DNA from: Henriciella sp.
GTDB lineage: Bacteria; Pseudomonadota; Alphaproteobacteria; Caulobacterales; Hyphomonadaceae
Length of the DNA stretch: 64,000 nucleotides
Direction of reading: 5' to 3'
Assembly (NCBI RefSeq): GCF_029936995.1
Contig: NZ_JAPYRE010000008.1
Coordinates: forward strand, 1 to 64,000
Part shown: in pieces, positions 17,267-36,218 of the stretch
How positions within the stretch are numbered: position 1 is the first letter of the stretch
Layout: each line of letters starts with the position of its first letter
Made by a program: the position numbers and the translations under genes
The notes under the pieces: generated by a model
Database searches by the model: none
What the model was told of the DNA's origin: nothing
The model's input: the letters and a program-made list of their open reading frames with translations, nothing else

Positions 17267-17470
17267 TGAACTCGAGCTGTGCTGACAGAGTACATAAAAG
17301 CTGACGCAAACCTGGTCAGCCAGTAGGCACAAACTCGCTCCTCTGCTTCACCCCTACATATAGAATATAATGCTGTTCTGGCCATTACGTTGCGTCCATG
17401 ATCTGCAGTCCGTATGTCGGCCAGGTATATCCAGCCGGCAGTATCGCATTGCCGGAAAGAGAGCTTTTAC
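17267..17470. promoter_or_regulatory. Divergent promoter region of tamA and the PPTase gene
   Basis: About 200 nt between divergent starts. It contains an AT-rich patch (ACATATAGAATATAATGC near 17355-17372) that could serve as a -10 region for the plus-strand gene. No operator was recognised. Confidence 0.4.
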
Positions 17471-18124
17471 GTGGGACAACGGCCTGGCATGTCACTCATA
17501 CCTGTCTGGACATATGCCGAAAATATTGCGGGCCCAGGGGCCTTTTCTCCCGCGGGGCCAGAAGAAGCTGCGCGTGTGGAAAAGCTTGCTGATCCAGCGC
17601 GACGGCAGGAAATCCTGCACGCGCGTCACCTGATGCGCACACTTCTGGCCGAGACATATGAGCGGCAAGAATCCAGTGTCGTTATTCACTCTTTTGACGA
17701 TGCGCCACCGCGCGCCGAAGGTTTTGAGGATATTGCCGTCTCATGGTCACGCTCCGGGCCGCACGCCCTTGCGGCATGTCTTCCGAATGGACGTCTCGGC
17801 GTGGACCTGGAGCGGATCAGGCCGGTGCGCTGGAAGGCCATGCTGGACATGATTGCAACGCCCCCGGAGCGGGCAGCGCTTGCGAGCATCAGTGAAGAAA
17901 AGACAGCACTTGTCGCGTTCTACCGTCTCTGGTGTGCAAAGGAGGCTTTGCTGAAATGGCGCGGAACAGGGCTGCGCGGCGGTGCGAAAACTGTATCAGT
18001 GCCGGAGGCTGTCATAACGGGCGACAAAGAAAAGGTGGTCGTGACCGAAGGCGGGATAGAGGTTCATCTTGAGACACTATGTCCAGACGAAGACCTCATC
18101 GCCGTAATGGCTTTCAGCGATTAA
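17471..18124 (+). CDS. pfaE: Sfp-type 4'-phosphopantetheinyl transferase (PfaE-like)
   Basis: About 217 residues. It shows both Sfp-family motifs, GVDLERIRP (metal-binding Asp and Glu) and FYRLWCAKEALLKWRGTGL (the W/KEA motif). The N-terminal IPVWTYAE fits the family start. GTG 17471 is chosen because GGAAAGAG lies 9 nt upstream; ATG 17489 and ATG 17414 are alternatives. It transfers phosphopantetheine from CoA to acyl carrier proteins. It lies head-to-tail opposite the lipid synthase operon and should activate the two ACP domains of the PfaA-type protein. Its 3' end overlaps the convergent acyltransferase gene by 11 nt. Confidence 0.92.
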   Translation: MGQRPGMSLIPVWTYAENIAGPGAFSPAGPEEAARVEKLADPARRQEILHARHLMRTLLAETYERQESSVVIHSFDDAPPRAEGFEDIAVSWSRSGPHALAACLPNGRLGVDLERIRPVRWKAMLDMIATPPERAALASISEEKTALVAFYRLWCAKEALLKWRGTGLRGGAKTVSVPEAVITGDKEKVVVTEGGIEVHLETLCPDEDLIAVMAFSD

Positions 18125-18698
18125 AGACAGACTTGAACATCCAGCCGGCCAGCGACTTGCCGCTGGTATGGCGTTCATCCTGCATGTCAAAGACCATTAG
18201 CGCAGTCATACCGAAGGCTTCTGTCTGAATGCCTTCCTTCATGATGTCGAAGCCCATCGAGCCGTAGAATTCCCGCATCGACGGCTCGGCGAGGATCGCG
18301 ATGTAGCGTTGTTTTTCCCACGCCACGTAATCGAGAACGGCGCGCATCACCGGGCCAAGCGTCTTGGAGCCGCGCCGTTCCGGTGCGGTCACGAGTTTGG
18401 AGACGATAACCGCTCCATTATCTGGATATGGCAGGGCTTCATGCAGCTGGAAGAGGGCATATCTGCCGGACATTTCAGTCTGGTTGACCGGGATAACCTG
18501 GGCGCTTGAGACTAGGTCTGCCCCGTCGAACAAGGCAAATGTGACACCCGCCCTGTCGGCTTCGTCAACCAGCAGGCGGGCTTGCGGATCTGCGCCGGGC
18601 AGCTGGAACTGTTTCTCAGCGCAATAGACGCGGTAACGCAGGTGCTGCACCAGTGGCAGGGTGCGCTCGTCGACAACGATCAGTTCTGCATTGGTCAT
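18114..18698 (-). CDS. GNAT-fold acyltransferase, FeeM/N-acyl amino acid synthase-like
   Basis: 194 residues. The opening LRYRVYCAEKQFQLPG, then LLVDEADRAGVTFALFDGADLVSSAQVIPV, resembles the autoinducer-synthase-like branch of the GNAT fold (FeeM, N-acyl amino acid synthases, distantly LuxI). There an N-terminal R-x-R-V-Y segment and an acidic D-x-x-D segment precede the acyl-ACP groove. VTAPERRGSKTLGPVMRAVLDYV is the cofactor or pantetheine-binding part. Its ATG overlaps the synthase stop codon in an ATGA, so translation is coupled. The inferred role is transfer of the finished acyl chain from the synthase ACP to an amine, giving an N-acyl product. An ordinary acetyl-CoA-dependent GNAT remains possible. 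Confidence 0.8.
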   Translation of the reverse strand: MTNAELIVVDERTLPLVQHLRYRVYCAEKQFQLPGADPQARLLVDEADRAGVTFALFDGADLVSSAQVIPVNQTEMSGRYALFQLHEALPYPDNGAVIVSKLVTAPERRGSKTLGPVMRAVLDYVAWEKQRYIAILAEPSMREFYGSMGFDIMKEGIQTEAFGMTALMVFDMQDERHTSGKSLAGWMFKSVFNR

Positions 18699-21600
18699 TG
18701 TTCTTCAAACCCGTCATCCGTAACGCACCAGGTGCGGCTGGCTGGATCGAAACTGAGGTCGTAACGTTGGCGTCCGCCCGGTCCGGTCACGAAGGGTGGA
18801 TCAAGCTGGACCTTTCCCGGATGGATTCCCCATTTACACGCGAAGTGTTCTTTTACGGCAACTGCCTTGACCAATGCGCTGCCCGTCAGGCCTTCACATC
18901 CCCAGGCTTCGGCGACGGTGCCAGGCAGCCAGTCACACGCGATGACATCGGCCGGGGACAGGCGGGTCAGCTTCCCGTCTGTCCGGCTCAGCGGGGCGGG
19001 GTGTGCATCGCTTTCGCCTTTCAAAAAAGCCTTTCTTTCCAGGGCGCCAAGCGTTGATAGCGGCCCCTTCGGATAGGCTTTCTCGATAAGGTCGAGCCGG
19101 GCCCAGAGATCGCTCCCGAGGAAAGCCTCGATCGTGACAGGCAGGTCGCCTGTGAGAAGGTCGCGCTGGCCGGGTACGCCCCGGATCGTGAGGTCGCCCG
19201 TTGCCGGTAGATCCGAACAGATCACAAGCCGCTCGATGCGGACAGGATAGATCGCGCAATCTTCCACACCATCAAACCACTCCTCCGGGGTCTCATGCGG
19301 GGGGCCGTGGACCAGTGCGTCGAGGATGACGGCATCGAAGGCGTCCCCCGGACAATCTGCAAGTGAGAGATCGACCGTCGCTTCGAACCCTTTGCTGTCG
19401 CGGCGTATCCCGGTGACGGGTCTGAGGCCCGGCCCATGGAAGAGATCGGCAGTTTCATACGGATCGGGAAGGGGCTTGCCATGATCACTGGGCTTCAGGC
19501 GCGATGCGGGCGCGCGTGTGCGTGTCGCGATCTGTCCGGAGGACAGAATGGTCCAGGGTGCATCCGGATCGCTTTCAGCCCGCCCGCGCAGGCGGGCCTT
19601 TCCATCCGGTGTGACACGGGTTTCCACACGCAGGCCATGATCGGGGACGCTGGCCCACTGGCGGGGAGAAAAGCCGGTCAATTCAATCGGATAACCGGAA
19701 AAATCCGCCGCGCGGGCCTGACGCAACAGCATCCCGGCCTGAGAAAGAAGTGGCAGGGCGGGCAGGGTATGGGTTGGCCGGTGCGCGCCCACCCAGGCCG
19801 GAATTTGCGGTCTCAAGGTGGTGTGAGAGCGGTGTAGCAGTGGTGTGGGAGCGGTACAGAATCTGATGCTCACTCCACGCATTTCATAGATACGCAGGCC
19901 ATCGACCCAGAGCGAGCCCGTCCCCCGGATGATCGTCGCTTCGTCCTGTTCCTCCACCCCGTCGATCTCGATGGTGGCGGTCACCTGTTTTGCGGTCGGG
20001 TTGACCTGGCCGCGATAGGTCCAGACGAGGTCTTCGCCGGGCTCAACCGGTTCCCAGTGTGGCTGCTCGAAACGCGCCGCCAGTCCCTTTAGGTCGCCAG
20101 CACGCGCGAGCAGCTGGACCAGCATGTCGAGGCCGAGCGATCCGGGCTGAACCGGATCCGAGAAGAAGTGGGCCCTGAAATACCAGGCATAGGGGTCGAC
20201 GAATTGCTGCGCGCGGATGCGGCCAAGCCCGGCTGCGCCGCCTTCAGGTTCGAACCGGTCGATCATGTCGAACAGGGCAAGACGGCCCGTCGAGACTGGC
20301 AGAACGGTTTCTGCCTCGCTTGGCGGATCGGCCGGGGCGTCGATGAAGGCGCGGGCTGCGTCGCTGGCTTTCAGTCCGGCTTGTGCGGCGAGCGAGGCCT
20401 TGGTGAAAAAGCCGAAGCTCGTCTCCAGTGTTACGACAGGGGTGCCGTCGGCAAGCGTGGCTTCAAGCTCGAAGAAGACAATCGTCATCGGGCCGACGCG
20501 TGAGGCGCGGGTCAACGTCGTGCGCGTGCGGATGGTGCCGTCTTCCGGCCATATCTGGCGGGCCGTCCTGCCAGCGCCGTCGAGATTGCGGAACCGGGTT
20601 TCGCCCGAGAGCGCAAAGCCGGAATAGGAAGCAAGCCAGCCGCAGGGCTGGAGGATCACTTCGGTCAGGACCGAGAAGGGCATGGTGCCGGTCCCGCCAT
20701 CGGTGAAATACCAGGCGTCAGGCGGGATGTCGTATTCGGCGATCGCCGTAAGCCCTGCCGCCTGCTGGCCGGATGGGCCTGTCACGGAAAGGACCCGGCT
20801 GACCATGTGATAGGGTGGCTGGGGGAGGCGCGGCACGGCGCCCCTGTGATCGAACGGGGCATACATCGAGCCGAAGGCGTTGCTCGGTGCGCCGGAACCG
20901 CACTCGATCATGGCGGCTTCATCGCCGCGCACATCGCCCTCGTCATTGACGTAATGCGGCACCGATTTCGCTTTCGCCATATGCGGCCACTGGCGGCGCA
21001 GGCGCACGCCAAAACGCGGACAATAGAAGACCTTCCGCCCGTCAGACCGTGCGAGAAGGCTTGCAAAGACGACAGGCTCCTCGCCGTCGATGATCTCGTC
21101 GATGAAGACTTCATAGGTCACGTCATGATCGGCGTCCGGGGTAACCTGTCCGCGGCAGTAGAAGGTTGCCGCCTCTCCCGGTGCGGGCTCGAAGACATGG
21201 CTGTCGCGCTCGATTGTGAAGCCAAGTGCTGCGGCGGTGAACTCCAGCGTCTGGACAGCCGCCTCGGCCATCAGCGTGCCGGGCATGCAGGGGTCTTCGT
21301 GGAAATGCCCGTCATAGAACCACGCATCCTTCGGCACATGCTGGCATGCCTTCAGATAGCCCCGGCCCCAGGGCCCGCCTTGTGGCTCAAAAGTCTCGAC
21401 ATCGTCGAAGAGGGCGAGGCGTCCGGCTGGCAGGCGTGCCGGCCTTGTATGCGGGGCGGCACGTTCGAAGCCTGCGCCGAAACAGCGATAGGTGTCCCCG
21501 GCCCGGAAGGCGGCGACGTCCGCACTCGTGAAGGCGGTTTTTTGTGAAGGCGTGGTCCTGTCGAGTCTCGGTTCGGCTGTTGGCGCGCCATCCTTTTCCG

Positions 21601-24600
21601 CGTCCCAGAGCACACCCTTGGAGTTGGCCAGTTCCTCATCGGTGAAGAAACCAGCCTGCCCGTTGCGCACTGACAGGATCAGCCGGTCATCGGCGTAGCA
21701 GTCATACTCGAAGAAGAACATGCGCACGCCGGAAAGCTCGGCATGGCCCTTGATGGAGATCTGGAAGCGCACTGTCTCGCCGATGCGTGGCAGGCCGGTC
21801 TCGTGGAAGGTCAGCTCGCAGCCGAGCAGGCGGTAGACGCGATCCGAACAGTTCAGCATGTCCGCGCCCATCCATGAGATAAGCGCGAGGTCGGCCTGTC
21901 CGGCCTCGATCAGCGGGCCGGGGCGCAAGCGGCCATCGCTGACGGCCCAGAGGTCTTGCGTGACATCGGTCTCGGTCCAGATCGTGCCCTTGCCCTGTAC
22001 CAGCGCCTCGGCGTCGATCCCGGCAATGCGGTCGCAGAGCAGCATGGGCGGGCGCGGCATGCGTACCTGACGGACATATTTGTCCTGAGCGGTAAAGGCC
22101 TCGCCGAAGACTTCGGAAATGTTTCCGGCAGCCGCGTGTTCGATCTGCTGGCGGGTGAAATTCGGGCCAACAGGCTCACGCCAGAAGAGCGGTGTGACGC
22201 CTTTTATTGTTGCGGGAGCAGGCGCGGGTTTTCGAGCCGCAGGACGAGGAGTCGGGCGTGTCGCTGGCCGTTCGAGAACGGCCGTCTCAATGGCAGGGCC
22301 GGGCGGTTTCCAGCTGATGCCGGGCGCAAGCGGGAGTTTGCGGCCTCTCGGAGGTTTTGACGCAGGCGGTGTGAAGGGCTTCAGCCCCGGCCTGCGCGGC
22401 GGTGTCAAAGTGCGCCGGGCGAGAGGAGACGGCAGGCGCGGCGGCGGCTTGTGCGCCGGGAAAGTGATCTCGCCGGGGCCAGTCCTTCGGAAGGGGATGG
22501 TGTTGGCGCGTGTGGCCTCAAGCCGGGCCTTCACTCTCTCCATCTTCACGTCATGCCCGGTTGCGAAGACAGCTGCGGCCAGCGTGGCAATGTCGAATAG
22601 TGCGGGCTGGCCGAAACGGTCTGTGGCAAGGGCCGTCACCTCATCGCCCAGCGTTTCCCGGATGGCCCCGGTCAGCGTATCGCGCGGGCCAATCTCGATG
22701 AAGGTGCGCACGCCGTCCTTGTGGGCCCGCATCAGCGTCTTCGGGAAGTTCACTTCCGCCACCGCCTGCCCGGTCAGCATACGCGCGACCGTCTTTCTGT
22801 CCGGGCGGTATGGGCCGTTCACGGCATTGGCATAGAAGCGCACGCCTTTGGGCGCTTTCGTCTTGCGGGTGTGCAGGCGGCGCCATGTCTTCTCATAGGG
22901 ATCCATCATCGGCGTATGGACGACAAGATCGTGCGGGACACGGATGGCCGATCCGCCGAGGCGCTTCAGCACGCGCTGGCAGGCTCTAGCATCGCCTGCG
23001 ATGACACCGTCTGTCGGGCTGTAGAGAATGGTAAGGTCGCAGCGTGGCTCATCCTTCATGGCGCTACGGATTGCGGACTCACTGGCCTGTACGCGCCATG
23101 TTTCCCAGCTTACAGGGGCATTGTCTTTCCATGCGGCCTGTGCGGTTTTGAAGTCACCGGCGAGGTCATCAGTGTACATGCCGCTCTCGCCGATCGTGCC
23201 CATCAGGCCGTCTGCGTCGGTCCAAGCGCCGAAGGCGATCAGGGAATTGGTCTCGCCGGATGAGAGCCCCATCGCGACGGCGGGCTTGAGGCCGAGTATG
23301 TCGGTCAGCAGCATGTGCTGGGCCTGCGAAATCAGGGTCGTGGCGCGCAGCTGGTCATAGGCGGCGGCAAGGTCACCGGCTAGCAGGCGGGCGACCTCCG
23401 GGGCCGCCGGGAACTTCGCAGCGAGTTTCGGGCCAAGCTCTGGGAAGGCGGCAAACAGGCCCTGGCCCATGCCGGAATAGGCTGCCGCTGCCCCTGTAAA
23501 AACGAAAGCGAGCTCGCCGGCAGGCTTGCCCTTGCCGTAATGCAGGCCCTCGCCTTGTGGAACTGCACCGGAGACAAGTGCTGCGATGGCCTCGGCCCGG
23601 CGTGCGGCCAGCGTGGTCTCATCGGTTGCGATGATGGCAAGGCGGTGCTTGCCAGTGCAGGCCTGCTGGCCCTTGCGAAGCGCATCAAGCAGGGCCGAGC
23701 GTGTGGAGGCGGCGTAGGTTTCAAGATGCGGGGCCGGGCGCAGCAGATCCGGGGCCGGGTGCGGCCTCGCCTTCAGCTTCACCCTGCCGCCAGAAACGGT
23801 GATGGTGCGGGCCTTGCGTGTGAAGACCGGCGTGATCCCGGCTGTCTCAAGCGCCATGCCGCGAGAAGCAAGTTCGGTCTCGACCGCCAGCCGGGCCAGC
23901 CCGCCTGCGGCATGGGAGACCCCGTAGAGGCGTTCGAGCAGGGTTTCGTCCGGGAGGCTGCCGGTCAGTTTCAGGGACTTGAGTGTGACGGGGGGGGTCG
24001 CATCTTTGGCCCGTTTAAGGATGAAGGCCGCAGCGGCATCTCCGCCGGGTGTGCCTGTGGCGGTTTCGTGGACAGGGTCGGCTGAGAGGTCTGCGGACGC
24101 GACGATGGCCGCATCGATCTCGCCAGCTTCCAGCGCTCGCATGGCGAGTTCCAGCGCGCGCAGGCCGGATGCCTCTTCTTCCATTACGGCAAAGCCCTGG
24201 GCACGCCAGTCACCACGCACATTGAGCCGGTTGGCCGAGACGTTGGGCATTGCGCCCAGCACGTCACCGGGTTTCAGCGGTGGAGAGATATTATTGCGGA
24301 GAGCATCGGTTTCAGCCACCTCCGGGGAGAGGCCGAGCCGTTCGGCGATCCGGGCGCGCAGCATCCAGCGGGCAGCCTCTGGCGCGCAGGCAAAGCCGGT
24401 GAAGACGCTGACGCGGGCACCGTCTTCAAGTGGGAAACGCGCAAGCGCTTCATCGACGGCATCATAGAGGGCGAGCTGCTGGCCCTGGGCTGAGGCGAGC
24501 TCGCTCGGCGGTGTACGCAGCGGCTTCGGGCTGGCGGCGGTCTCCTGCATCGGGCCGCGTGCGGTTTTGGGGGGGCGCGAGAGGCGTTGCAGGACGGCAG

Positions 24601-25957
24601 CGACACCCCGGTCCGGGCCGAGTGAGAGGCCGGTCGCGCAGATGGCGGCTTGTGGTCTGGACCTGCTTTGCTTGCGGGCCTTGGGGCGCTTTCCGTTATC
24701 GGCGGCGAGGATGAGGTGGGCGTTGTTGCCGCCAAAGCCGAAATTGCTGACCGCCGCGATGCGGGGGCGGTCTTCCGGCCACGGGCTCTTGCGGGCGGGG
24801 GTGAGGTTTACGCCGTCGAAGCCTTCAAGCGCCTCCCCCTCCAGCCGTGTCGGCGGGATGATGCCTTCATTCAACGCAAAGCTCATCTTGATCAGGCTGG
24901 CGATGCCGGCAGCCGTGATGAGATGGCCGAGATTGCCCTTGAGCGAGCCGATGGGCAGGGGGCTCTTGCCGGTGAAGTGCGCGGCTGTCGCCAGTAGCTC
25001 CACCCGGTCGCCTGTAGCGGTGCCGGTGGCGTGGGCTTCCAGCAGGCCGATGTCGCAGGCCGGGTCGAGGCCGGAGACCTTCCAGGCGGCGGCCATGGCT
25101 TCGGCCTGTCCGCCTTCGTCCGGCGCGAGCAGGGATTTACGGCGTCCGTCATTGGAAAGCCCGATGCCCCGGATGACGCCGTGGACGGTGTCGTCTTCGG
25201 TGCAGTCTGCAAGCCGCTTCAGAACGAGGGCTGCTGCGCCCTCTGCCGGGACGAGCCCGTCGGCCCCTTGCACGAAGGGGCGGGATTGCCCGGTGGGGCT
25301 GAGTGCGTTGAGGGCGGAAAAGCCCTGGTGCAGGATGAGATTGTCCGCACCATTGACGGCGGCGGCGATGGCGACATCCAGCGAGCCGTCCTGAAGCCGG
25401 TCGCAGGCTAGCTTCACGGCATAAAGCGAAGAGGCGCAGGCGGCATCGAGGGCAAAGGCAGGGCCTCTTGCTTTCAGGGCCTGGGCGAGCAGGCGGGCCG
25501 GGCCGCCTGTATTGAAGCGATTGGCGGGGTCTATCGTGGAAGCGCCCGATTGCCACACGTCGCTCGCATAATCGCAGAGCGCGCGGCTCGGATAGCCGAG
25601 ATTGCCGGTAATGACGCCGAGCTTCCGGGCTTTCACTTTAGGGGCGCCAGCCTCAAGCCAGGCGGCGCGGCCTGCATGGAGCAGCCACTGGAAAAGCGGA
25701 TCGAGGCGGGCTGCATCGATATCGCCGAGCTTATGGGCGGACGGATCGAAGACATCCTCAAAATCTGTGACGAAGCCGCCACGATAGCCCATCTGCGCCT
25801 GTTCGGTATCGGTGACGCCCCATTTGCCTTGCGGGGCAGAGGCAAGAAGGTCGCGATCTTCCAGTATAGCCTGCCAGAGGGCAGCCGGGCTCAGCGCGCC
25901 GGGCAGGACGCAGCCGCGTCCGATAATGGCAATCGGTTCGAAACGCGGCTTACCCAT
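18695..25957 (-). CDS. Multidomain lipid synthase subunit, PfaB/PfaC-like (KS-CLF-AT-DH-DH and C-terminal extension)
   Basis: 2420 residues. The order read from the N-terminus starts with a ketosynthase (about 1-430) that has Cys174 in DAACASS, EAHATGTATGD and GHLITAAG. Next comes a degenerate KS or chain-length factor (about 440-760) without the Cys motif, then an acyltransferase (about 830-1130) with Ser899 in GLSSGE. Two double-hotdog FabA-like dehydratases follow. In the first (about 1280-1630) the second half is intact, with His1551 in GHFHEDPCMPGT. In the second (about 1660-2010) the active half carries His1930 in AHFFSDPVQPGS. A C-terminal 400 residues resemble a PKS dehydratase fold with a possible PPTase-like remnant. 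In classical pfa clusters these are the separate PfaB and PfaC proteins. It overlaps the KR gene by 8 nt and the acyltransferase by 4 nt. Confidence 0.9.
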   Translation of the reverse strand: MGKPRFEPIAIIGRGCVLPGALSPAALWQAILEDRDLLASAPQGKWGVTDTEQAQMGYRGGFVTDFEDVFDPSAHKLGDIDAARLDPLFQWLLHAGRAAWLEAGAPKVKARKLGVITGNLGYPSRALCDYASDVWQSGASTIDPANRFNTGGPARLLAQALKARGPAFALDAACASSLYAVKLACDRLQDGSLDVAIAAAVNGADNLILHQGFSALNALSPTGQSRPFVQGADGLVPAEGAAALVLKRLADCTEDDTVHGVIRGIGLSNDGRRKSLLAPDEGGQAEAMAAAWKVSGLDPACDIGLLEAHATGTATGDRVELLATAAHFTGKSPLPIGSLKGNLGHLITAAGIASLIKMSFALNEGIIPPTRLEGEALEGFDGVNLTPARKSPWPEDRPRIAAVSNFGFGGNNAHLILAADNGKRPKARKQSRSRPQAAICATGLSLGPDRGVAAVLQRLSRPPKTARGPMQETAASPKPLRTPPSELASAQGQQLALYDAVDEALARFPLEDGARVSVFTGFACAPEAARWMLRARIAERLGLSPEVAETDALRNNISPPLKPGDVLGAMPNVSANRLNVRGDWRAQGFAVMEEEASGLRALELAMRALEAGEIDAAIVASADLSADPVHETATGTPGGDAAAAFILKRAKDATPPVTLKSLKLTGSLPDETLLERLYGVSHAAGGLARLAVETELASRGMALETAGITPVFTRKARTITVSGGRVKLKARPHPAPDLLRPAPHLETYAASTRSALLDALRKGQQACTGKHRLAIIATDETTLAARRAEAIAALVSGAVPQGEGLHYGKGKPAGELAFVFTGAAAAYSGMGQGLFAAFPELGPKLAAKFPAAPEVARLLAGDLAAAYDQLRATTLISQAQHMLLTDILGLKPAVAMGLSSGETNSLIAFGAWTDADGLMGTIGESGMYTDDLAGDFKTAQAAWKDNAPVSWETWRVQASESAIRSAMKDEPRCDLTILYSPTDGVIAGDARACQRVLKRLGGSAIRVPHDLVVHTPMMDPYEKTWRRLHTRKTKAPKGVRFYANAVNGPYRPDRKTVARMLTGQAVAEVNFPKTLMRAHKDGVRTFIEIGPRDTLTGAIRETLGDEVTALATDRFGQPALFDIATLAAAVFATGHDVKMERVKARLEATRANTIPFRRTGPGEITFPAHKPPPRLPSPLARRTLTPPRRPGLKPFTPPASKPPRGRKLPLAPGISWKPPGPAIETAVLERPATRPTPRPAARKPAPAPATIKGVTPLFWREPVGPNFTRQQIEHAAAGNISEVFGEAFTAQDKYVRQVRMPRPPMLLCDRIAGIDAEALVQGKGTIWTETDVTQDLWAVSDGRLRPGPLIEAGQADLALISWMGADMLNCSDRVYRLLGCELTFHETGLPRIGETVRFQISIKGHAELSGVRMFFFEYDCYADDRLILSVRNGQAGFFTDEELANSKGVLWDAEKDGAPTAEPRLDRTTPSQKTAFTSADVAAFRAGDTYRCFGAGFERAAPHTRPARLPAGRLALFDDVETFEPQGGPWGRGYLKACQHVPKDAWFYDGHFHEDPCMPGTLMAEAAVQTLEFTAAALGFTIERDSHVFEPAPGEAATFYCRGQVTPDADHDVTYEVFIDEIIDGEEPVVFASLLARSDGRKVFYCPRFGVRLRRQWPHMAKAKSVPHYVNDEGDVRGDEAAMIECGSGAPSNAFGSMYAPFDHRGAVPRLPQPPYHMVSRVLSVTGPSGQQAAGLTAIAEYDIPPDAWYFTDGGTGTMPFSVLTEVILQPCGWLASYSGFALSGETRFRNLDGAGRTARQIWPEDGTIRTRTTLTRASRVGPMTIVFFELEATLADGTPVVTLETSFGFFTKASLAAQAGLKASDAARAFIDAPADPPSEAETVLPVSTGRLALFDMIDRFEPEGGAAGLGRIRAQQFVDPYAWYFRAHFFSDPVQPGSLGLDMLVQLLARAGDLKGLAARFEQPHWEPVEPGEDLVWTYRGQVNPTAKQVTATIEIDGVEEQDEATIIRGTGSLWVDGLRIYEMRGVSIRFCTAPTPLLHRSHTTLRPQIPAWVGAHRPTHTLPALPLLSQAGMLLRQARAADFSGYPIELTGFSPRQWASVPDHGLRVETRVTPDGKARLRGRAESDPDAPWTILSSGQIATRTRAPASRLKPSDHGKPLPDPYETADLFHGPGLRPVTGIRRDSKGFEATVDLSLADCPGDAFDAVILDALVHGPPHETPEEWFDGVEDCAIYPVRIERLVICSDLPATGDLTIRGVPGQRDLLTGDLPVTIEAFLGSDLWARLDLIEKAYPKGPLSTLGALERKAFLKGESDAHPAPLSRTDGKLTRLSPADVIACDWLPGTVAEAWGCEGLTGSALVKAVAVKEHFACKWGIHPGKVQLDPPFVTGPGGRQRYDLSFDPASRTWCVTDDGFEEQ

Positions 25958-27362
25958 GCGCGATCTCCGACCCGATCACGAGTTCGGCCGGACAGGCGCT
26001 TCCCGCCAGCACGGCATCGGCAAACAGGCGTGCGCCTGCATCACGCGGGATAAGCGAGACACCCATCTCCGCGAACTTCGCCTTCAGGCTGTCTGTCACC
26101 ATGCCGCCATCCCACGGTCCCCAGCCGAGCGAGGTGATCGCAGCCTGCGGATTAGTGGCTTTCAGCCAGTGGGCCATGCGGTTCAGGATCTCGTTGGCCA
26201 TGGCATAATCGGCCTGGCCAGTATTGCCGTAGCGTGCAGCAACCGAAGAGAAAAAGACCACTGTTTTCAATGTGCTTATGTCCAGCTCCGAGAGCAGGGC
26301 TTCAAGGCCGGAGATTTTCGGTGCGAAGACGGTCTCGACCTGTGCGCGGGTCTTCTCTCGGATCAGCTTGTCAGCAAGCACGCCCGCGCCGTGGACTAGG
26401 CCGGTAACGCGGCCGAGGTCACGGTGAACATGGGCAAGCGCTTCCCTGAGGGCCGCCGGATCGGCAATGTCTGTCGGAATGTAGAGGGCCTTGCCGCCGG
26501 CCTGTTCGATGGCGGCCAGCGTCTTTCGGATTTCGGCGCCTGAAAGCAGGGCGCGTACTTCCCTGTTGAGCGCGGCAGGCGCAATCTTATCGCCATTGGC
26601 CTTTGCACGCATGGCCAGCGCGCCGCGCAGGGCCTTTTCGTCTTCCGTTGGCTCCAGGTCATCCGGCCACTGGGTTATGGCGGACCGTCCAAGCAGGGCG
26701 AAGCGGGCCTGCGTGCGCCGCGCCAGTTCTATGATGCAGTCAGCGGTCACGCCGCGCGCACCGCCCGTGACCAGGAAGACATCCTGCGGCCCGGCCTGGC
26801 CGGGCTGGGCGGCGGGCAGCCGGTAAGGTGTATCCCCCGGAACGACGCGGCCCCTGCCGGAAAGCCCGGCACACAGGGCTGCGCCACCGCTTAGCAGTTC
26901 TTCGACAAGGCGGTCGCTTGCCGCTTTTGCCCCAAGGTCTGCAATGTCGATATCAATCGCGCGGATAAGGGCTTTCGGAAACTCGTGGGTGGCTGTTCGG
27001 GCAAGCCCGGTGAGGCCGCCGCGCCAGGCGCGATCATCGCCCGGCTGGAAGCGCCCGCCTGTATCCTGCAAAATGATGACGGAGCCGCCCTCGGCCTCAA
27101 GGCGGCGTGCTTGTGCCGACAGGGCTTCCAGCGCGCCTGCATGGGCGTCGAGCGCCGTACCTGTCAGACCGTGGGCAAGGATAAGGCCGTCAGCGTTGCC
27201 AGACGGTGTGGCCACCTGGCGGAGCCTGAACCCGGCGCTGGAAAGGGCAGGAACAAGCACGTCTGCCAGCGCTGCATCGCCGCCGACATATTCGATCAGC
27301 CCCGCTTCGCGCAGGCCCGGTGTTACGCGGCCCACAGGCTGTTGTGATGTATAGCTGACCAT
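25950..27362 (-). CDS. Ketoreductase of the lipid synthase (probably fused to the PfaA-type protein by -1 frameshift)
   Basis: 470 residues. A structural N-terminal half precedes an NADPH-binding Rossmann fold with VTGGARGVTADC, LLGRSAI and VHGAGVLADKL. The catalytic segment is FFSSVAARYGNTGQADYAMANE (Ser, Tyr, Asn) and is complete. In known PfaA proteins the KR lies at the C-terminus of the same polypeptide after the ACP repeats. Here a separate frame opens at ATG 27362 with no ribosome site upstream. The open frame extends back without a stop to the PfaA ACP end, in the -1 frame. It either is made as a fusion or starts poorly by itself. It reduces 3-ketoacyl-ACP intermediates. Confidence 0.88.
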   Translation of the reverse strand: MVSYTSQQPVGRVTPGLREAGLIEYVGGDAALADVLVPALSSAGFRLRQVATPSGNADGLILAHGLTGTALDAHAGALEALSAQARRLEAEGGSVIILQDTGGRFQPGDDRAWRGGLTGLARTATHEFPKALIRAIDIDIADLGAKAASDRLVEELLSGGAALCAGLSGRGRVVPGDTPYRLPAAQPGQAGPQDVFLVTGGARGVTADCIIELARRTQARFALLGRSAITQWPDDLEPTEDEKALRGALAMRAKANGDKIAPAALNREVRALLSGAEIRKTLAAIEQAGGKALYIPTDIADPAALREALAHVHRDLGRVTGLVHGAGVLADKLIREKTRAQVETVFAPKISGLEALLSELDISTLKTVVFFSSVAARYGNTGQADYAMANEILNRMAHWLKATNPQAAITSLGWGPWDGGMVTDSLKAKFAEMGVSLIPRDAGARLFADAVLAGSACPAELVIGSEIAHG

Positions 27363-27412: not shown

Positions 27413-27452
27413 GGGCGCGTTCAGGCGCCGGCGCGCCCCCTAGCCAAAAAAA
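27413..27452 (-). promoter_or_regulatory. Candidate programmed -1 frameshift site at the PfaA/KR junction
   Basis: On the minus strand the codons read GAT TTT TTT GGC TAG. The heptamer T TTT TTT (27452-27446) fits the X XXY YYZ form in the zero frame. Seven bases later a 7-bp GC stem GGGCGCG/CGCGCCC (27438-27432 with 27419-27413) closes a 12-nt loop. A -1 slip avoids the TAG and leads through 28 sense codons, rich in Pro and Ala, in frame into the KR ATG at 27362. A sequencing error in the seven-base run or a true mutation would look the same. Confidence 0.55.
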
Positions 27453-30400
27453 TCGGCGATCTTCCGGATCGAGCGCAATTCTGCAATCTGCTCTGGTTCG
27501 ACTTCCGGCAGGTTGGGCATCTGCTCACGCAGGGCAGACAGGATTTCCACCTGCTTGATGGAGTCGACACCGAGTTCGCCTTCAAGGTCCATGTCGTCTT
27601 CCAGCATGTCGGCCGGATAGCCTGTCTTGTCGGCAATCAGGCTGCGGACGAGTTCGGCCATGTTGCATGTGGCGGCAGGGGCGGGTGCAGGGGCTGGCGC
27701 CTGTGTCGCCGCCATTGCGGGGGCATGGGCCGTACCATTGGTCATACCGTTCGTGCCGGAAGCAGCGGCAGCACCATTCCGGGCCGGTGCAGGCTGGGCC
27801 GCGGCGGTTGCCGCCGGGGCGAGGAAATCCGCGATTTTCCGGATCGAACGCAATTCTGCAATCTGTTCGGGCTCGATCTCGGGCAGATCAGGCATCTGCT
27901 CGCGCAGGGCTGAGAGGATCTCGACCTGCTTGATGGAGTCGACGCCTAGCTCGCCCTCAAGATCCATGTCGGGCTCCAGCATATCCTGCGGGTAGCCGGT
28001 CTTCTCGGCCACAAGCGACGCCACAAGGCCGCTGAAATCCTGTCCCGCCGGAGGCTGTGCAGGCACCGGGGCTGGAGCAGCCGGAGCAACGGGCTGGGCG
28101 GCAGGGGCTAGAGCCGGGGCAGAAGCGACAGGCGGTTGTGGCTGAGGGGCGGCCTGCTGGACCGGAGCAGCTTGCGGTGCTGGCTGGGATGGGGGTGTTG
28201 GGGCCTGTGTCTGTGTCTGGGGTGCAGGATTAATGGCCGGGGCCGGCGGCGGCGCGATGTGGCGGCGTGTGGTGTTCTGGTCGATCATCTGTCCAGCACC
28301 CGCAGATCCCAGCACATTCGCTGACGCCTGGAGATAGTTCGCGTGGGCGACACGCAGGGCCTCGATATAGTCGGCATGGGCCGCTGTCATATTGGCGTGA
28401 ATGCGTTCGGCGGCGTCGCTGGCGGGGCGGTCATCATACTGGGACACGGGCGGTACTCCTGGCGGGGTCTGGGAAGGTTGCGGGGCGGCCTCTGGCTGGG
28501 CCGCTGACAATGGCTTGGGATCTGTGACGGACGGCGGGCTGGCCGCGGGTTCGGGATTGGGCGGCGGCAGGCCGGCTGCCCCGCCTTCAGGCGGATAGGG
28601 CTTGCGGTAGTTCGCGCCAGTGAGGTCGATCGTGTGCTTTGAGCGCGGTTTGCGCGGAGCGGGCGCGGGCATGTTGGCGAACAGCGCCTCGAAATCGACC
28701 GGATGACCGAGGACAGCGAGCTTGCCGAGCCCGGCGAGGAAAGCGGCAAGGCCGTTGCCCTTCCTGTCATCAAGCGAGACGGCCTCTGCCCGGCCGGGAA
28801 GGATCTGGCCGACAAGTGTGGTGAGCACTGTGCCGGGACCAGCCTCGACAAAGGTGGTAACGCCATCCGCGTGCATCGCTTCGACGATGGCGCGGAAGCG
28901 GACCGGGCTTTCGATCTGTGTGGCGAGCAGGTCGCGTTGTGCCTTGTAGGCGAGCGGATAGCGTTTTGCCGAGACATTGGCATAGACCGGGAAGCGGGCT
29001 TTCGAAAACTCTGTCTTCTCAAGGGCCTTGCGGAATGGACCGACTGCACCTGCCACGATGGGTGAATGAAACGCAGAGGCGACGGGCAGGCGCCGGGCCT
29101 TGATACCTGTCGCCTCTATCGCCACTCGTGCGGATTCTATTGCTGCGACAGGGCCTGAGAGGACCGTCTGTGTCGGCGCGTTATCATTGGCGATGACAAC
29201 ATCCGGGTGGCTTTCAAGCAGGGTGGCAAGGTCTTCGGCAGCGGCCTGCGTGGCGAGCATTGCGCCTTCATTCGAGGCGGCGGCCTTTGCCATAAGTTTC
29301 GCGCGTTTGTGCGCGGTGCTCAGTGCGTCTTTCGAACTCAAGCTGCCTGCAGATTGCAAGGCCATGATTTCCCCGAAGCTGTGGCCGGCGGCCATGTCCG
29401 GGGTGACGCCAGCCTTGTCCAGCACGCCAAGCGTTGCCAGCGTGGCGGCAGCAAGCGCGGGCTGGGCGTTTTCCATCGCCGTCAACGTATCGGCTTGCGC
29501 CTTGGCTTCCTCCTCGGTGTAGGCAGAGGGCGGAAAGGCGAGATTGTGCAGCGCCTGCGGCCCGGTCTTCTTGTGACTGGCCGCAAGGTCCCAGGCGGCC
29601 AGTGCTTCTGGGAACGCAAGCGCAAGATCGCGTCCCATCCCGACATACTGGCTGCCCTGACCCGGCATCAGGAAGGCCAGCTTGCCCGGTTTTGCGGGCG
29701 TGAGCGCGATGCTGGTGCCTTTGGGGAGAGGTGCGGTTTCGGCCTGGCCCGCACGGATGAGTACCGTAATTTTCGCTGCCTTGGTGGCAAAGTCCCCTGT
29801 GTCGGTTGCCACAATCGCGGCGCGGCAGGGGGCGTCCGGCTCGAAGTCCGCATGGCTCTCGCTGGCAGTGATGGCGAGGTCTTCCTCGTGTACCATGCGC
29901 TGGGCGTAAGCCTCTATGGCTTTGGCCAGGGCTTCGCTGTCGCGTGCAGACATCATGACCAGTTCCGCCGGAAGGGCGCGTTCGGGCATGACTGCTGCGG
30001 GCCCGTCATATTCCTCCAGCGTAATATGGAAGTTCGAGCCGCCGAACCCGAATGAACTGACCGAGGCCCGGCGCCTGTGGTCTGATTTGCGCACCCAGGG
30101 GCGCAGTTCCCGGTTGGGATAGAAAGGCGATCCGGCGAGTGCCGGGGCAGGCGCATCGACCTTGAGGGTCGGCGGGTAGGCCTTGCGGCTGAGCGCCATC
30201 GCTGTCTTGATGAGGCTGGCCGCACCGGCGGCTGCCTTGGTGTGGCCGATCTGCGATTTGACCGAACCAATGGCGCACCAGGGCTCCTCCACCGGCTCTC
30301 CGTCAGGCGCGAAGACGAGCTTCAGCCCCCCAATCTCGGCGGCATCGCCGGCCTTGGTGCCGGTGCCGTGCGCTTCGACAAGCTCCACAGTCCGGGGGTC

Positions 30401-31402
30401 GTACCCAGCCTGATCGTAAGCGCGTTTCAGGGCGCGTGCCTGGCCGGTCGGCAGGGGCGCGTAGATCGCCGTGGCGCGTCCGTCAGAGCCAGCCCCAAGC
30501 CCCTTGATGACAGCGTGGATACGGTTGCGGTCTCGCTCGGCATCGGCAAGGCGGCGCAGGGCGAGTATGCCGATGCCCTCGCCGAGCATCGTGCCATCGG
30601 CCCTGTCAGAAAAAGGCCGGCAGTCCTCGCTCATGGAAAGGGCCGGGGTTTTCGAGAAGCACATATACATCAGGATGTCGTTCAGCGCGTCCGAACCGCC
30701 AGCGAGCACCATGTCGCTGTCGCCTGAGTTCAGCTCATGCAGGGCGACCTGTATCGCCGAGAGCGACGAGGCGCAGGCCGCATCCGTGACATAGTTGCTG
30801 CCGCCAAGGTCCATCCGATTGGCGATGCGCCCGGCGACAACATTGCCGAGCAGGCCGGGGAAGGTGCTCTCTTTCCATTCAGAGAAGTTTGAAGAGATAC
30901 GGTCAGCGATTTCCTGGACCTGGGCTTCAGGGAGGCCAGCCTCCCGCAAGCCTTTCACCCATGACGGGCGTTGCAGACGGCCTGACATATGGCCGACCAG
31001 TTCGGTCGCCGACGCGACGCCGAGGACGCAGCTGGTTCGCTCGCGGCTGATCGTGCCATTGCTCGCGGCTTCGGCCTCGTCGAGCGCTTGCTGGGCCACG
31101 ATGAGGGCAAGTAGCTGGGCGGTGTCGGTCGCCTCGATCTGGTTGGGCGGGATGCCAAAGTCGAGCGGGTCGAAGCCCTGCGGCGAGAGAAAGCCCCCGC
31201 GCCGGCCATAGGTCTTGTCACGGGCGCGCGGATCGGCGTCGTAATAATCCTCGATCAGCCAGTGGGTCGGCGGAACAGGGCCGAGCGTATCGACACCCTC
31301 GGCAATGTCGCGCCAGTAGCCAGCCGTGTCGCCGCGGCCGGGGAAAATGGCGCCGAGGCCGACAATGGCGATATCTGCCGGTTGATTTTTGCTGCTGCTC
31401 AT
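27440..31402 (-). CDS. pfaA: Multidomain lipid synthase subunit, PfaA-like (KS-AT-ACP-ACP)
   Basis: 1320 residues. The ketosynthase (about 8-470) has Cys210 in DAACASS, EAHGTGTKAGD and GHTKAAAG. The acyltransferase (about 590-900) has FLMPGQGSQYVGMG and Ser675 in GHSFGE. A Pro/Gln/Ala-rich linker is followed by two acyl carrier domains, each with LGVDSIK for the phosphopantetheine serine, almost identical to each other, at about 1130-1205 and 1250-1320. Known PUFA synthases carry four to nine ACPs and a KR after them; here only two ACPs precede a TAG. The start follows GAGGGG, 26 nt after the PfaD-type gene. It performs chain extension with malonyl units. Confidence 0.93.
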   Translation of the reverse strand: MSSSKNQPADIAIVGLGAIFPGRGDTAGYWRDIAEGVDTLGPVPPTHWLIEDYYDADPRARDKTYGRRGGFLSPQGFDPLDFGIPPNQIEATDTAQLLALIVAQQALDEAEAASNGTISRERTSCVLGVASATELVGHMSGRLQRPSWVKGLREAGLPEAQVQEIADRISSNFSEWKESTFPGLLGNVVAGRIANRMDLGGSNYVTDAACASSLSAIQVALHELNSGDSDMVLAGGSDALNDILMYMCFSKTPALSMSEDCRPFSDRADGTMLGEGIGILALRRLADAERDRNRIHAVIKGLGAGSDGRATAIYAPLPTGQARALKRAYDQAGYDPRTVELVEAHGTGTKAGDAAEIGGLKLVFAPDGEPVEEPWCAIGSVKSQIGHTKAAAGAASLIKTAMALSRKAYPPTLKVDAPAPALAGSPFYPNRELRPWVRKSDHRRRASVSSFGFGGSNFHITLEEYDGPAAVMPERALPAELVMMSARDSEALAKAIEAYAQRMVHEEDLAITASESHADFEPDAPCRAAIVATDTGDFATKAAKITVLIRAGQAETAPLPKGTSIALTPAKPGKLAFLMPGQGSQYVGMGRDLALAFPEALAAWDLAASHKKTGPQALHNLAFPPSAYTEEEAKAQADTLTAMENAQPALAAATLATLGVLDKAGVTPDMAAGHSFGEIMALQSAGSLSSKDALSTAHKRAKLMAKAAASNEGAMLATQAAAEDLATLLESHPDVVIANDNAPTQTVLSGPVAAIESARVAIEATGIKARRLPVASAFHSPIVAGAVGPFRKALEKTEFSKARFPVYANVSAKRYPLAYKAQRDLLATQIESPVRFRAIVEAMHADGVTTFVEAGPGTVLTTLVGQILPGRAEAVSLDDRKGNGLAAFLAGLGKLAVLGHPVDFEALFANMPAPAPRKPRSKHTIDLTGANYRKPYPPEGGAAGLPPPNPEPAASPPSVTDPKPLSAAQPEAAPQPSQTPPGVPPVSQYDDRPASDAAERIHANMTAAHADYIEALRVAHANYLQASANVLGSAGAGQMIDQNTTRRHIAPPPAPAINPAPQTQTQAPTPPSQPAPQAAPVQQAAPQPQPPVASAPALAPAAQPVAPAAPAPVPAQPPAGQDFSGLVASLVAEKTGYPQDMLEPDMDLEGELGVDSIKQVEILSALREQMPDLPEIEPEQIAELRSIRKIADFLAPAATAAAQPAPARNGAAAASGTNGMTNGTAHAPAMAATQAPAPAPAPAATCNMAELVRSLIADKTGYPADMLEDDMDLEGELGVDSIKQVEILSALREQMPNLPEVEPEQIAELRSIRKIADFFG

Positions 31403-31428: not shown

Positions 31429-32844
31429 TTATTCAAATAGGCCGGGCGTATAGACAAAGGATGACGATGGGATGTCATGACCGCTGGCCCGCATGGCCTG
31501 CATACGGGTGATATGGGCGGCGCCGTCGAGCAGGTTCCAGGCAATCTGCTTGACTGTCCGGTTCTCAAGTGCCTCGAGCGGAGAGCCTTTCACCCATTCA
31601 TTGAAAGCGCCCATGGCCGGGCCGCACCAGATCTGGAAATCGCGGGTGCGGGCGGCCTCGCCCTCGCGGGCCCATTGTGCCCCGAAGAAGAGATAGCGCC
31701 GGAAGACGAGCGCCATCTGGCGGCGTGCGTCGCCTGCGGCGCGCTCGAGTTCCGCCGGGTTGGTGCGCTGCATGTAGTTCTCGGTCTTGCTCCAGGCTTC
31801 TGCGTAGGTCTCGCCAAGAGCTGTCTCGATGAATTTCTGTTCGTCAGGTGAGCAGTCCTTGAAACCTGTGCGAGACTGGTAGATGGCCCACATACGGTTG
31901 CCGCGCATGGCAAACAGTGTACCGCGTTTGAGCACCTGCACCTGCACGCCCTGTTCGAACATGTCGGCCGCAGGGGTCATGGCGATGTCGGCCGGACCGG
32001 CACCGGCCAGCAATTTGCGGCCTTCCAGTGACAGCCCGGACTCGATAGCGGCCTGATTGACTGAGCCTGTGAGGATGTAGGCGGCCCCCATCTGGTAGGC
32101 GGCAGCCGCCGCCCAGGGTGTGCCGATCCCGCCGGCGAGACCAATCCTGATAAGATCGGGCGAGAGGCCATGTGCTGAGCAGATTTCTGCGCGGGTCTGC
32201 GCCAGTGAGGAAAACAGCGGCCCGGCGGGGCGGTTGTCCGTGTGACCGCCACTATCGGACTCGGCTGTGATGTCGCCAGCGACTGGTACAAGGCGGGCCA
32301 GCTCTGCCTGTTCAGGTGTGATGTCACCAGCTGCGACCAGCTCCTGAAGAAGCTTTTGCGGAGCGGGGGCCATGAAATGGCGGGCGACCTCTGCGCGGGA
32401 AACCTTTGCGACGACATGCGTGGTTCGCATGATCTCACCATCAGGGCCACGTGAGAGGCCACGGGCGCTGTAACGCACGATCTCTTTTGAGAGCGCCATG
32501 AAGGCTGAAGCCGACACACGCGCGACGCCGCGATCCAGGAAAAGGTCTACGACTGCACGTTCATAACCGGGCTGTTGTGGTGAATGGATAAGATTGGCGC
32601 CCCAGGCCGGAGCATCCTTGCCGAGGCCGGCCTCGATCTCATCAAGGCCCTCGGCGATCGTTTCTGGGCGCAGGCCGGCGCTGCCATAGAAGCCCATCAG
32701 CCCGGCCCTGACGGCCGCGATGACCATGCTGGGCGTTGCAATGCCGCGGGCCATTTCACCAACGACATAGGCAAACCGGCTGCCGTGCTGGCGTGTGAAA
32801 CTGCGGTCGCCGAGCCACTCGGGATGGATGTCAGCCGGGCTCAT
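31429..32844 (-). CDS. pfaD: PfaD-type enoyl reductase of the lipid synthase
   Basis: About 471 residues from ATG 32844; a GTG at 32934 would add 30 residues of low complexity. It is a TIM-barrel FMN protein of the 2-nitropropane dioxygenase superfamily. It has the PfaD signatures MGFYGSAGL near the N-terminus, the long ITAESDSGGHTDNRP loop, GLAGGIGTPWAAAAAYQMGA and the C-terminal helical part with AQWAREGEAARTRDFQIWCGP. In PUFA synthases it reduces the trans-2-enoyl-ACP intermediate. Being first in the operon is unusual, since pfaD normally comes last. Confidence 0.93.
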   Translation of the reverse strand: MSPADIHPEWLGDRSFTRQHGSRFAYVVGEMARGIATPSMVIAAVRAGLMGFYGSAGLRPETIAEGLDEIEAGLGKDAPAWGANLIHSPQQPGYERAVVDLFLDRGVARVSASAFMALSKEIVRYSARGLSRGPDGEIMRTTHVVAKVSRAEVARHFMAPAPQKLLQELVAAGDITPEQAELARLVPVAGDITAESDSGGHTDNRPAGPLFSSLAQTRAEICSAHGLSPDLIRIGLAGGIGTPWAAAAAYQMGAAYILTGSVNQAAIESGLSLEGRKLLAGAGPADIAMTPAADMFEQGVQVQVLKRGTLFAMRGNRMWAIYQSRTGFKDCSPDEQKFIETALGETYAEAWSKTENYMQRTNPAELERAAGDARRQMALVFRRYLFFGAQWAREGEAARTRDFQIWCGPAMGAFNEWVKGSPLEALENRTVKQIAWNLLDGAAHITRMQAMRASGHDIPSSSFVYTPGLFE

Positions 32845-33128
32845 CGTGGAACTTGGGGAAGGTAATGATGTCCGGTTTTCAACCTTCGAGGTTGAAGCGG
32901 ATTTGTCCGAGTGGAGCCATGGTGAATTCAACACAGCGCTTCATTCCCCCTCTGGTTGCAAATGTAACCGTGAATCGCGCTATGCTGCAATGCAGGATCG
33001 ACGCCAGAGGGGGCATTTTCTCCAAGGCTGTGTCTTTCTTGTGTGGGCTTCCCAGTAAAATGCTCAATACTGTTGCAACTGCAAGGAATTTGCCCTGCGT
33101 GCGAAAGCCCTGTCATGGCGGGGCTGGC
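32845..33128. promoter_or_regulatory. Intergenic region upstream of the lipid synthase operon
   Basis: About 280 nt between the PEPC-like gene end and the PfaD-type gene, both on the minus strand. A 6-bp GGGGCT/AGCCCC hairpin overlaps the PEPC stop codon but lacks a T-run. Moderately AT-rich sequence at 33040-33090 should contain the operon promoter. No specific operator was recognised. Confidence 0.4.
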
Positions 33129-35978: not shown

Positions 35979-36218
35979 CCTGGCTCCGTGGTCTTGTCGA
36001 GGGTACGGCACCTGCCGCGGGGATAACCAGAACTGGAACTCTCGAAGCGCTGAAGTCAAGCCAAGCGCGCGCATAGCTGGGATGTGGCATGTGAGCGCCG
36101 GACATTTTGGCGGGGTCTGGACCGATTGACGCTGTGTCAGCATGGCGTCCGGAGAAAATTCATGGCTCAATAATGAAAACGCGCCCGTGAGAGGCGTAGA
36201 TCATGGGAGGATGAAGCG

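Follow-up and report, generated by a model that had tools for sequence, protein, structure and literature searches.

The last gene of a PUFA-synthase-type operon in Henriciella sp. encodes a GNAT protein that, by its sequence profile, is a divergent branch of the FeeM family, and it occupies the position that an AGPAT acyltransferase domain holds in related synthases. The operon lies in a stretch of 64,000 nucleotides, here called the window; Henriciella are marine bacteria, and the operon resembles those that build omega-3-type fatty acids. We consider, with modest confidence, that the GNAT is an acyl-ACP-dependent N-acyltransferase and the terminal off-loading enzyme of this iterative synthase. 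As it is related to makers of fatty-acid amides, the operon may yield a fatty amide and not a free fatty acid.

In the proposed route, PfaD, PfaA1, the ketoreductase (KR) and PfaBC would assemble a chain, long and probably polyunsaturated, on the pair of ACPs in PfaA, which the neighbouring phosphopantetheinyl transferase (PPTase) would activate. The GNAT, probably coupled in translation to PfaBC and made in step with it through the overlapping start codon, would dock on an ACP, take the finished acyl thioester and transfer the chain to a small acceptor at its amino group, so that an N-acyl amide results. In this way the enzyme would fill the place of the AGPAT domain. Somewhat more tentatively, a FeeM-type enzyme may have taken over from the terminal lysophospholipid acyltransferase in one PUFA-synthase lineage, leading to polyunsaturated N-acyl amides in bacteria. 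If true, off-loading would be exchangeable at the C-terminal end of PfaBC, where the occupant (AGPAT, GNAT or none) would set the lipid class.

The GNAT gene and its operon

The gene (18114-18698, minus strand) begins with ATG and encodes 194 residues (P0001). Its start codon and the TGA stop of the megasynthase gene share an ATGA (18695-18698, minus strand), and it is the last of five genes of a pfa-type operon; these readings of the earlier note are all borne out by the sequence, as is the N-terminal motif that it described, with L-R-Y-R-V-Y at residues 20-25 and the D-x-x-D as D45-E-A-D48. The other four genes, also on the minus strand, encode a PfaD-type enoyl reductase whose true start possibly lies further in (31429-32934; TIGR02814, 531.3 bits against a cut-off of 449.25), PfaA1 with the order KS-AT-ACP-ACP and two PP-binding stretches (27440-31402; TIGR02813, 986.5 bits, the cut-off of 1010.1 applying to the unsplit protein), a split-off, PfaA2-like KR (25950-27362; 306 bits for the KR region of TIGR02813; PF08659) and a PfaBC-type megasynthase of 2420 residues (18695-25957). 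The latter has the order KS-CLF-AT-DH2-DH3-DH4; Pfam and NCBIfam profiles give its KS, CLF-like KS, AT and FabA-like dehydratases, with the AT region below the cut-off in both Pfam and pfaB_fam and the KS cysteine and AT serine identified by eye. The genes are co-directional, with gaps that are short or replaced by overlaps, KR and PfaBC overlapping by 8 bp. A convergent gene for an Sfp-type PPTase, in the role of PfaE (17414-18124, plus strand; PF01648), overlaps the 3' end of the GNAT gene by 11 bp in the window, and a PPTase gene adjoins the GNAT gene in the 13 relatives read. The gene set of a PUFA-type secondary lipid synthase is complete: PfaD above its cut-off, tandem ACPs, KS-AT, KR, CLF, FabA-like DH and PPTase. 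The start of the GNAT gene overlaps the end of PfaBC in every relative with the junction read (9/9 loci and 8/8, two sets that share genomes).

A PEPC-like gene upstream was considered as a member of the cluster and ruled out because it is present in 27 of the 29 genomes of the genus. It encodes a divergent PEP carboxylase-like protein (33129-36170), in which the best PF00311 stretch covers only residues 485-624. On the other side, some relatives carry an extra ORF between PPTase and TamA (L096:14667-15275), ECF sigma factor-like by eye; in the window this interval is too short to hold one.

The C-terminal slot of PfaBC

The megasynthase ends in a PKS-type dehydratase tail, DH4 (approximately residues 2035-2420; 18698-19855, minus strand), with no AGPAT behind it. 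The AF2 model of the last 390 residues (pLDDT 91.3) has the PKS-type dehydratase fold, and the titles of all 50 Foldseek matches listed name a PKS dehydratase or PKS protein; the Pfam PS-DH profile gave 15.9 bits, under its cut-off of 23.7. We compared this tail across 80 named pfa-like loci, the best 80 of 143, 71 of them extending 1 kb or more beyond PfaBC. A homologous DH4 tail is present in 45 of them, including eight from Henriciella, and in 20 of these 45 (20 of the 37 outside Henriciella) an NHxxxxE motif follows in an extension of 299-376 amino acids of the same protein. All four extensions tested with Pfam are PF01553 (PlsC/AGPAT-like) acyltransferases, and in one locus (L123) a separate PF01553 gene lies 227 bp behind PfaBC. 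The DH4-AGPAT arrangement has been published for myxobacteria, where, in the available text, the AGPAT is presumed to acylate 1-acylglycerol-3-phosphate (PMC6731297).

Henriciella PfaBC keeps DH4 and lacks AGPAT, and the GNAT gene stands in the AGPAT position, an arrangement consistent with replacement of the terminal acyltransferase. The slot can also be empty, since 17 DH4 loci outside Henriciella have neither a fused AGPAT motif nor a GNAT, although four of the 17 end at a contig end. The core tree was built by a quick method with SH-aLRT support from 77 of the 80 loci plus the window (78 rows), excluding three loci with fewer than 700 shared-core residues. In it the clusters with GNAT and DH4 are set apart from all others by a branch whose support is 100, and a single change is needed for this combination; their sister is a group of 30 Hyphomonas-type clusters, in which DH4, AGPAT and GNAT are all lacking, and other alphaproteobacterial DH4 clusters, two of them with AGPAT, fall outside. 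The natural reading would be that the terminal enzyme was exchanged in Henriciella and that DH4 was lost in the Hyphomonas type. By eye, no gene that follows the four Hyphomonas-type clusters inspected (L102, L104, L107 and L108) resembles a terminal acyltransferase.

The survey also placed DH4 with a fused PlsC-like stretch beyond the myxobacteria, in Paenibacillus, Acidobacteriota, Gemmatimonadota and Rhodospirillaceae (the motif being seen in 20 loci and Pfam-tested in four); such loci include L106, L115, L145, L147, L148, L151, L152, L160, L168 and L169. Other genes can begin at the PfaBC stop, such as one for an MMPL transporter in Streptomyces candidus (L158:13615-15879) and one for an FAD amine-oxidase-like protein (L074:19181-19990, genome G524). 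Two clusters labelled as Acidobacteria MAGs (L118 and L127) nest inside Hyphomonas and are probably mis-binned contigs.

Family placement and structure of the GNAT

The protein scores 33.2 bits by hmmscan against the FeeM family (PF21926, cut-off 27), and the profile matches nine of ten orthologues at E<=0.01, although genome-wide searches with PF21926 missed the gene in its own genome. The OlsB-type profile PF13444 gave 22.0 bits, under its cut-off of 22.4, Acetyltransf_9 scored just under its own, and the LuxI profile PF00765 gave no match at E<=0.1. For family HMMs and hhalign we used 18 of 29 FeeM loci (leaving out the weaker matches L228-L237 and the short L227), 9/9 LuxI, 24/25 OlsB-type (one was short) and 21/25 Acetyltransf_1 (two were short and two had no strand listed). 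The HMM of the 18 FeeM proteins, all from other genomes, beats those of the other three families on all ten orthologues; for P0001 the score is 14.1 bits for FeeM against 8.7, 4.3 and 3.1 for the other three. With hhalign, where the query alignment is shallow and FeeM leads LuxI and OlsB only slightly, FeeM reached 86.6% (158 columns), LuxI 81.0% (136) and the OlsB type 78.0% (118), against 25.3% for Acetyltransf_1 (59 columns, in the C-terminal half). These comparisons group the GNAT with the acyl-ACP-using FeeM/LuxI/OlsB families, FeeM first and narrowly, and not with ordinary acetyltransferases.

Single residues refine this placement. R21, D45 and D48, common to FeeM, LuxI and OlsB, are kept in 10/10, 9/10 and 10/10 orthologues. 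The Glu and Arg conserved in 9/9 LuxI proteins are I/V98 and Q67 in all ten GNAT orthologues, so the protein is not a LuxI in the strict sense; of the FeeM/LuxI-like assignment made in the earlier note, the FeeM part is supported and the LuxI part is not, and the family profile points to a divergent branch of FeeM that is not an AHL synthase. Many residues conserved in the aminolipid N-acyltransferases OlsB and GlsB (PF13444) also differ, although the Arg and D-x-x-D signature is shared. Three Arg conserved in FeeM (17/18, 17/18 and 18/18 proteins) are replaced in the GNAT by Q67, K101 and S147, and the substrate is therefore not predictable.

Loss of these three Arg, together with the AGPAT position, would suit an enzyme that does the job of AGPAT itself, with a hydroxyl acceptor (glycerolipid, glycolipid or sugar) instead of an amine. 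We regard this as unlikely, because the families closest by profile form amide bonds, as the accessible part of the literature describes them (PMC11631085).

The AlphaFold model of the GNAT, from a nine-row alignment, is of moderate quality (pLDDT 79.6, pTM 0.77) and has the GNAT fold. Among the 50 Foldseek matches listed, FeeM chains rank 4, 12, 21, 27 and 40 and the AHL synthases RpaI, BjaI and LasI fall at ranks 6-24, whereas ranks 1-3 are acetyl-CoA GNATs, led by SACOL1063 and glyphosate acetyltransferase; TM-scores in the search are about 0.5. The structural comparison with FeeM and LuxI folds that the earlier note suggested thus recovers both groups, but behind acetyl-CoA enzymes; the fold alone is indecisive, and it is the sequence profiles that point to the acyl-ACP group. 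No solved structure matched significantly by sequence (best E 0.13 and 0.15). The head of the structure list and the near match to Acetyltransf_9 would agree with a GNAT that uses acetyl-CoA or a short acyl group to modify a protein, for example an ACP of the synthase or a regulator, with no role in release. This seems rather unlikely to us, as the Acetyltransf_1 alignment is confined to the C-terminal half and the protein bears the signature of the acyl-ACP group, Arg with D-x-x-D.

Distribution across genomes and pfa-like loci

The GNAT gene is present in 14 of the 29 genomes of the genus (the window and 13 relatives), always directly behind PfaBC, so the linkage to pfa genes seen in the earlier note is kept in every genus genome that bears the gene. 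PfaD scores above its cut-off in 14 of the 29; 13 genomes have both genes and 14 neither, one (G153) has the GNAT and, at the edge of a contig, a fragment of PfaD, and one (G156, locus L111) has PfaD without GNAT in a cluster of the Hyphomonas type. The linkage represents one clade and one event, and thus the genomes are not independent. Co-occurrence of GNAT and PfaD is confounded by phylogeny, because another window protein (P0006) splits along the same line, with 66-77% identity in the 13 other GNAT genomes against 50-56% in the 13 of 14 PfaD-less genomes that have a match. A clean empty site in Henriciella without pfa genes was not found in the eight regions examined.

Beyond the genus, 12 of 150 genomes in a sample of the order gave a match, ten of them Henriciella; within 19.5 kb around the other two matches there is no operon protein besides the FeeM-like match itself. 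In a sample of 385 genomes of the class the profile found the window's own genome and four others. Two of these, G240 and G524, were read over 20 kb; in both the FeeM-like protein is about 390 amino acids long, being extended at its C-terminal end, and pfa genes are absent from the stretch read. G524 does carry a pfa cluster on another short contig. Two such proteins (L075:14626-15792 and L076:9840-11021) belong to another alphaproteobacterial family, and their C-terminal part is cyclic-nucleotide-binding-like by eye. The nine other class-sample genomes with PfaD show no GNAT adjoining it in the stretches read. When the ORFs of at least 100 amino acids in the 80 pfa-like loci were searched with a FeeM HMM built without Henriciella, exactly the eight Henriciella GNATs were found at E<=0.01; their genomes are already among the 14 bearers and add no evidence. 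The gene is absent from all 72 other loci surveyed, 63 of which have at least 1 kb behind PfaBC, and the adjacent homologue that the earlier note proposed to look for in other pfa-like clusters was met in no surveyed locus outside Henriciella.

Linkage of FeeM-type synthases to exosortase systems has reportedly been published. The 14 GNAT genomes yielded no exosortase at E<=1e-5, and the two matches in the genus sit in genomes without GNAT. The window's own genome has no member of PF00765 or PF13444 at E<=1e-10, so no other obvious amide-forming enzyme of those two families competes with the GNAT.

An N-acyltransferase could also be fed by ordinary FAS II acyl-ACP, its place in the operon reflecting shared regulation only, and N-acyl amino acids are indeed thought, in the available text of one paper, to derive from acyl-ACP of primary metabolism (PMC12479983). 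We hold this to be improbable in view of the overlap of the gene with PfaBC and its absence from the 14 PfaD-less genomes of the genus, though those look like a separate clade. In some polyketide synthases GNAT-like domains load starter units. A GNAT fold beside an iterative PKS-like synthase might suggest such chain initiation on an ACP here, which is very improbable given the 3'-end position in the AGPAT slot, the match to the FeeM profile and the lack of such a gene in the other pfa loci surveyed.

Comparison with known systems

FeeM resembles the off-loading candidate in the profile match above the cut-off, in the GNAT fold and in the signature of R21 with D45 and D48; the Henriciella protein differs from it in having Gln, Lys and Ser at three Arg positions, in its tie to a PUFA-type synthase and in the absence of a detected exosortase from the GNAT genomes. 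The cluster itself is closest in layout to two published types and to its sister clade. Type D pfa of Psychroflexus torquis likewise has a split pfaA1 (KS-AT-ACPn) and pfaA2 (KR) and a fused pfaBC (KS-CLF-AT-DH2), but five ACPs where Henriciella has two, and Henriciella adds DH4 and GNAT, as far as the accessible part of that paper describes the cluster (PMC3098273). Minicystis rosea Pfa3, in the portion available, carries a PKS-like DH4 after its FabA-like DH2 and DH3, as in Henriciella, which lacks its AGPAT domain and has a separate GNAT gene next (PMC6731297). The Hyphomonas-type clusters share the gene order of the synthase, unlike the Henriciella clusters in having no DH4, AGPAT or GNAT.

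The operon is thus made of known parts in a new combination, and what is new here is the equivalence of the GNAT to the AGPAT slot, DH4-AGPAT itself being described in the accessible text on myxobacteria (PMC6731297). In the open literature, among the matches listed (titles and beginnings of abstracts, with subscription papers mostly outside), we found no pfa cluster described with a FeeM or GNAT gene for release. A PUFA synthase was joined there to the term N-acyl only in the zeamine paper, in whose available part the amide to a PUFA-like chain is proposed to be the work of a free-standing condensation domain (PMC3547906); the main text of a 2026 survey of PUFA-synthase hybrids, as far as available, contains neither 'GNAT' nor 'N-acyl' (PMC13291983).

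Release from PUFA synthases is debated, and PfaB homologues are described, in the accessible part of one source, as hydrolases or as terminal acyltransferases (PMC12895367); by analogy, the late acyltransferase could perhaps be the AT of PfaBC itself. A discrete candidate release gene, in a slot that is filled otherwise or empty in relatives, makes the question of release testable. If the product is an amide, the operon would provide a way for bacteria to make polyunsaturated N-acyl lipids and could serve as a component in engineered pathways.

Selection and descent of the GNAT gene

The GNAT is under purifying selection, with dN/dS of 0.04-0.20 (36 pairs from nine genomes), synonymous sites being near saturation in many pairs. 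Its mean identity to the window copy in eight relatives is 72.6%, close to that of the megasynthase (72.8%), whereas that of the PPTase is 42.7%. Taken together, the dN/dS values and this similar conservation show that the gene is not a chance ORF. GNAT distances correlate with those of PfaBC (r 0.91) and equally with those of the flanking TamA/TamB (0.93), which reflects vertical descent and is not evidence of function. The most divergent orthologue (L021:15443-16030, genome G145) is approximately 61-62% identical and has changes at Y25, E28, K29 and D45, which are otherwise conserved; this copy may be degenerating or may use a different substrate.
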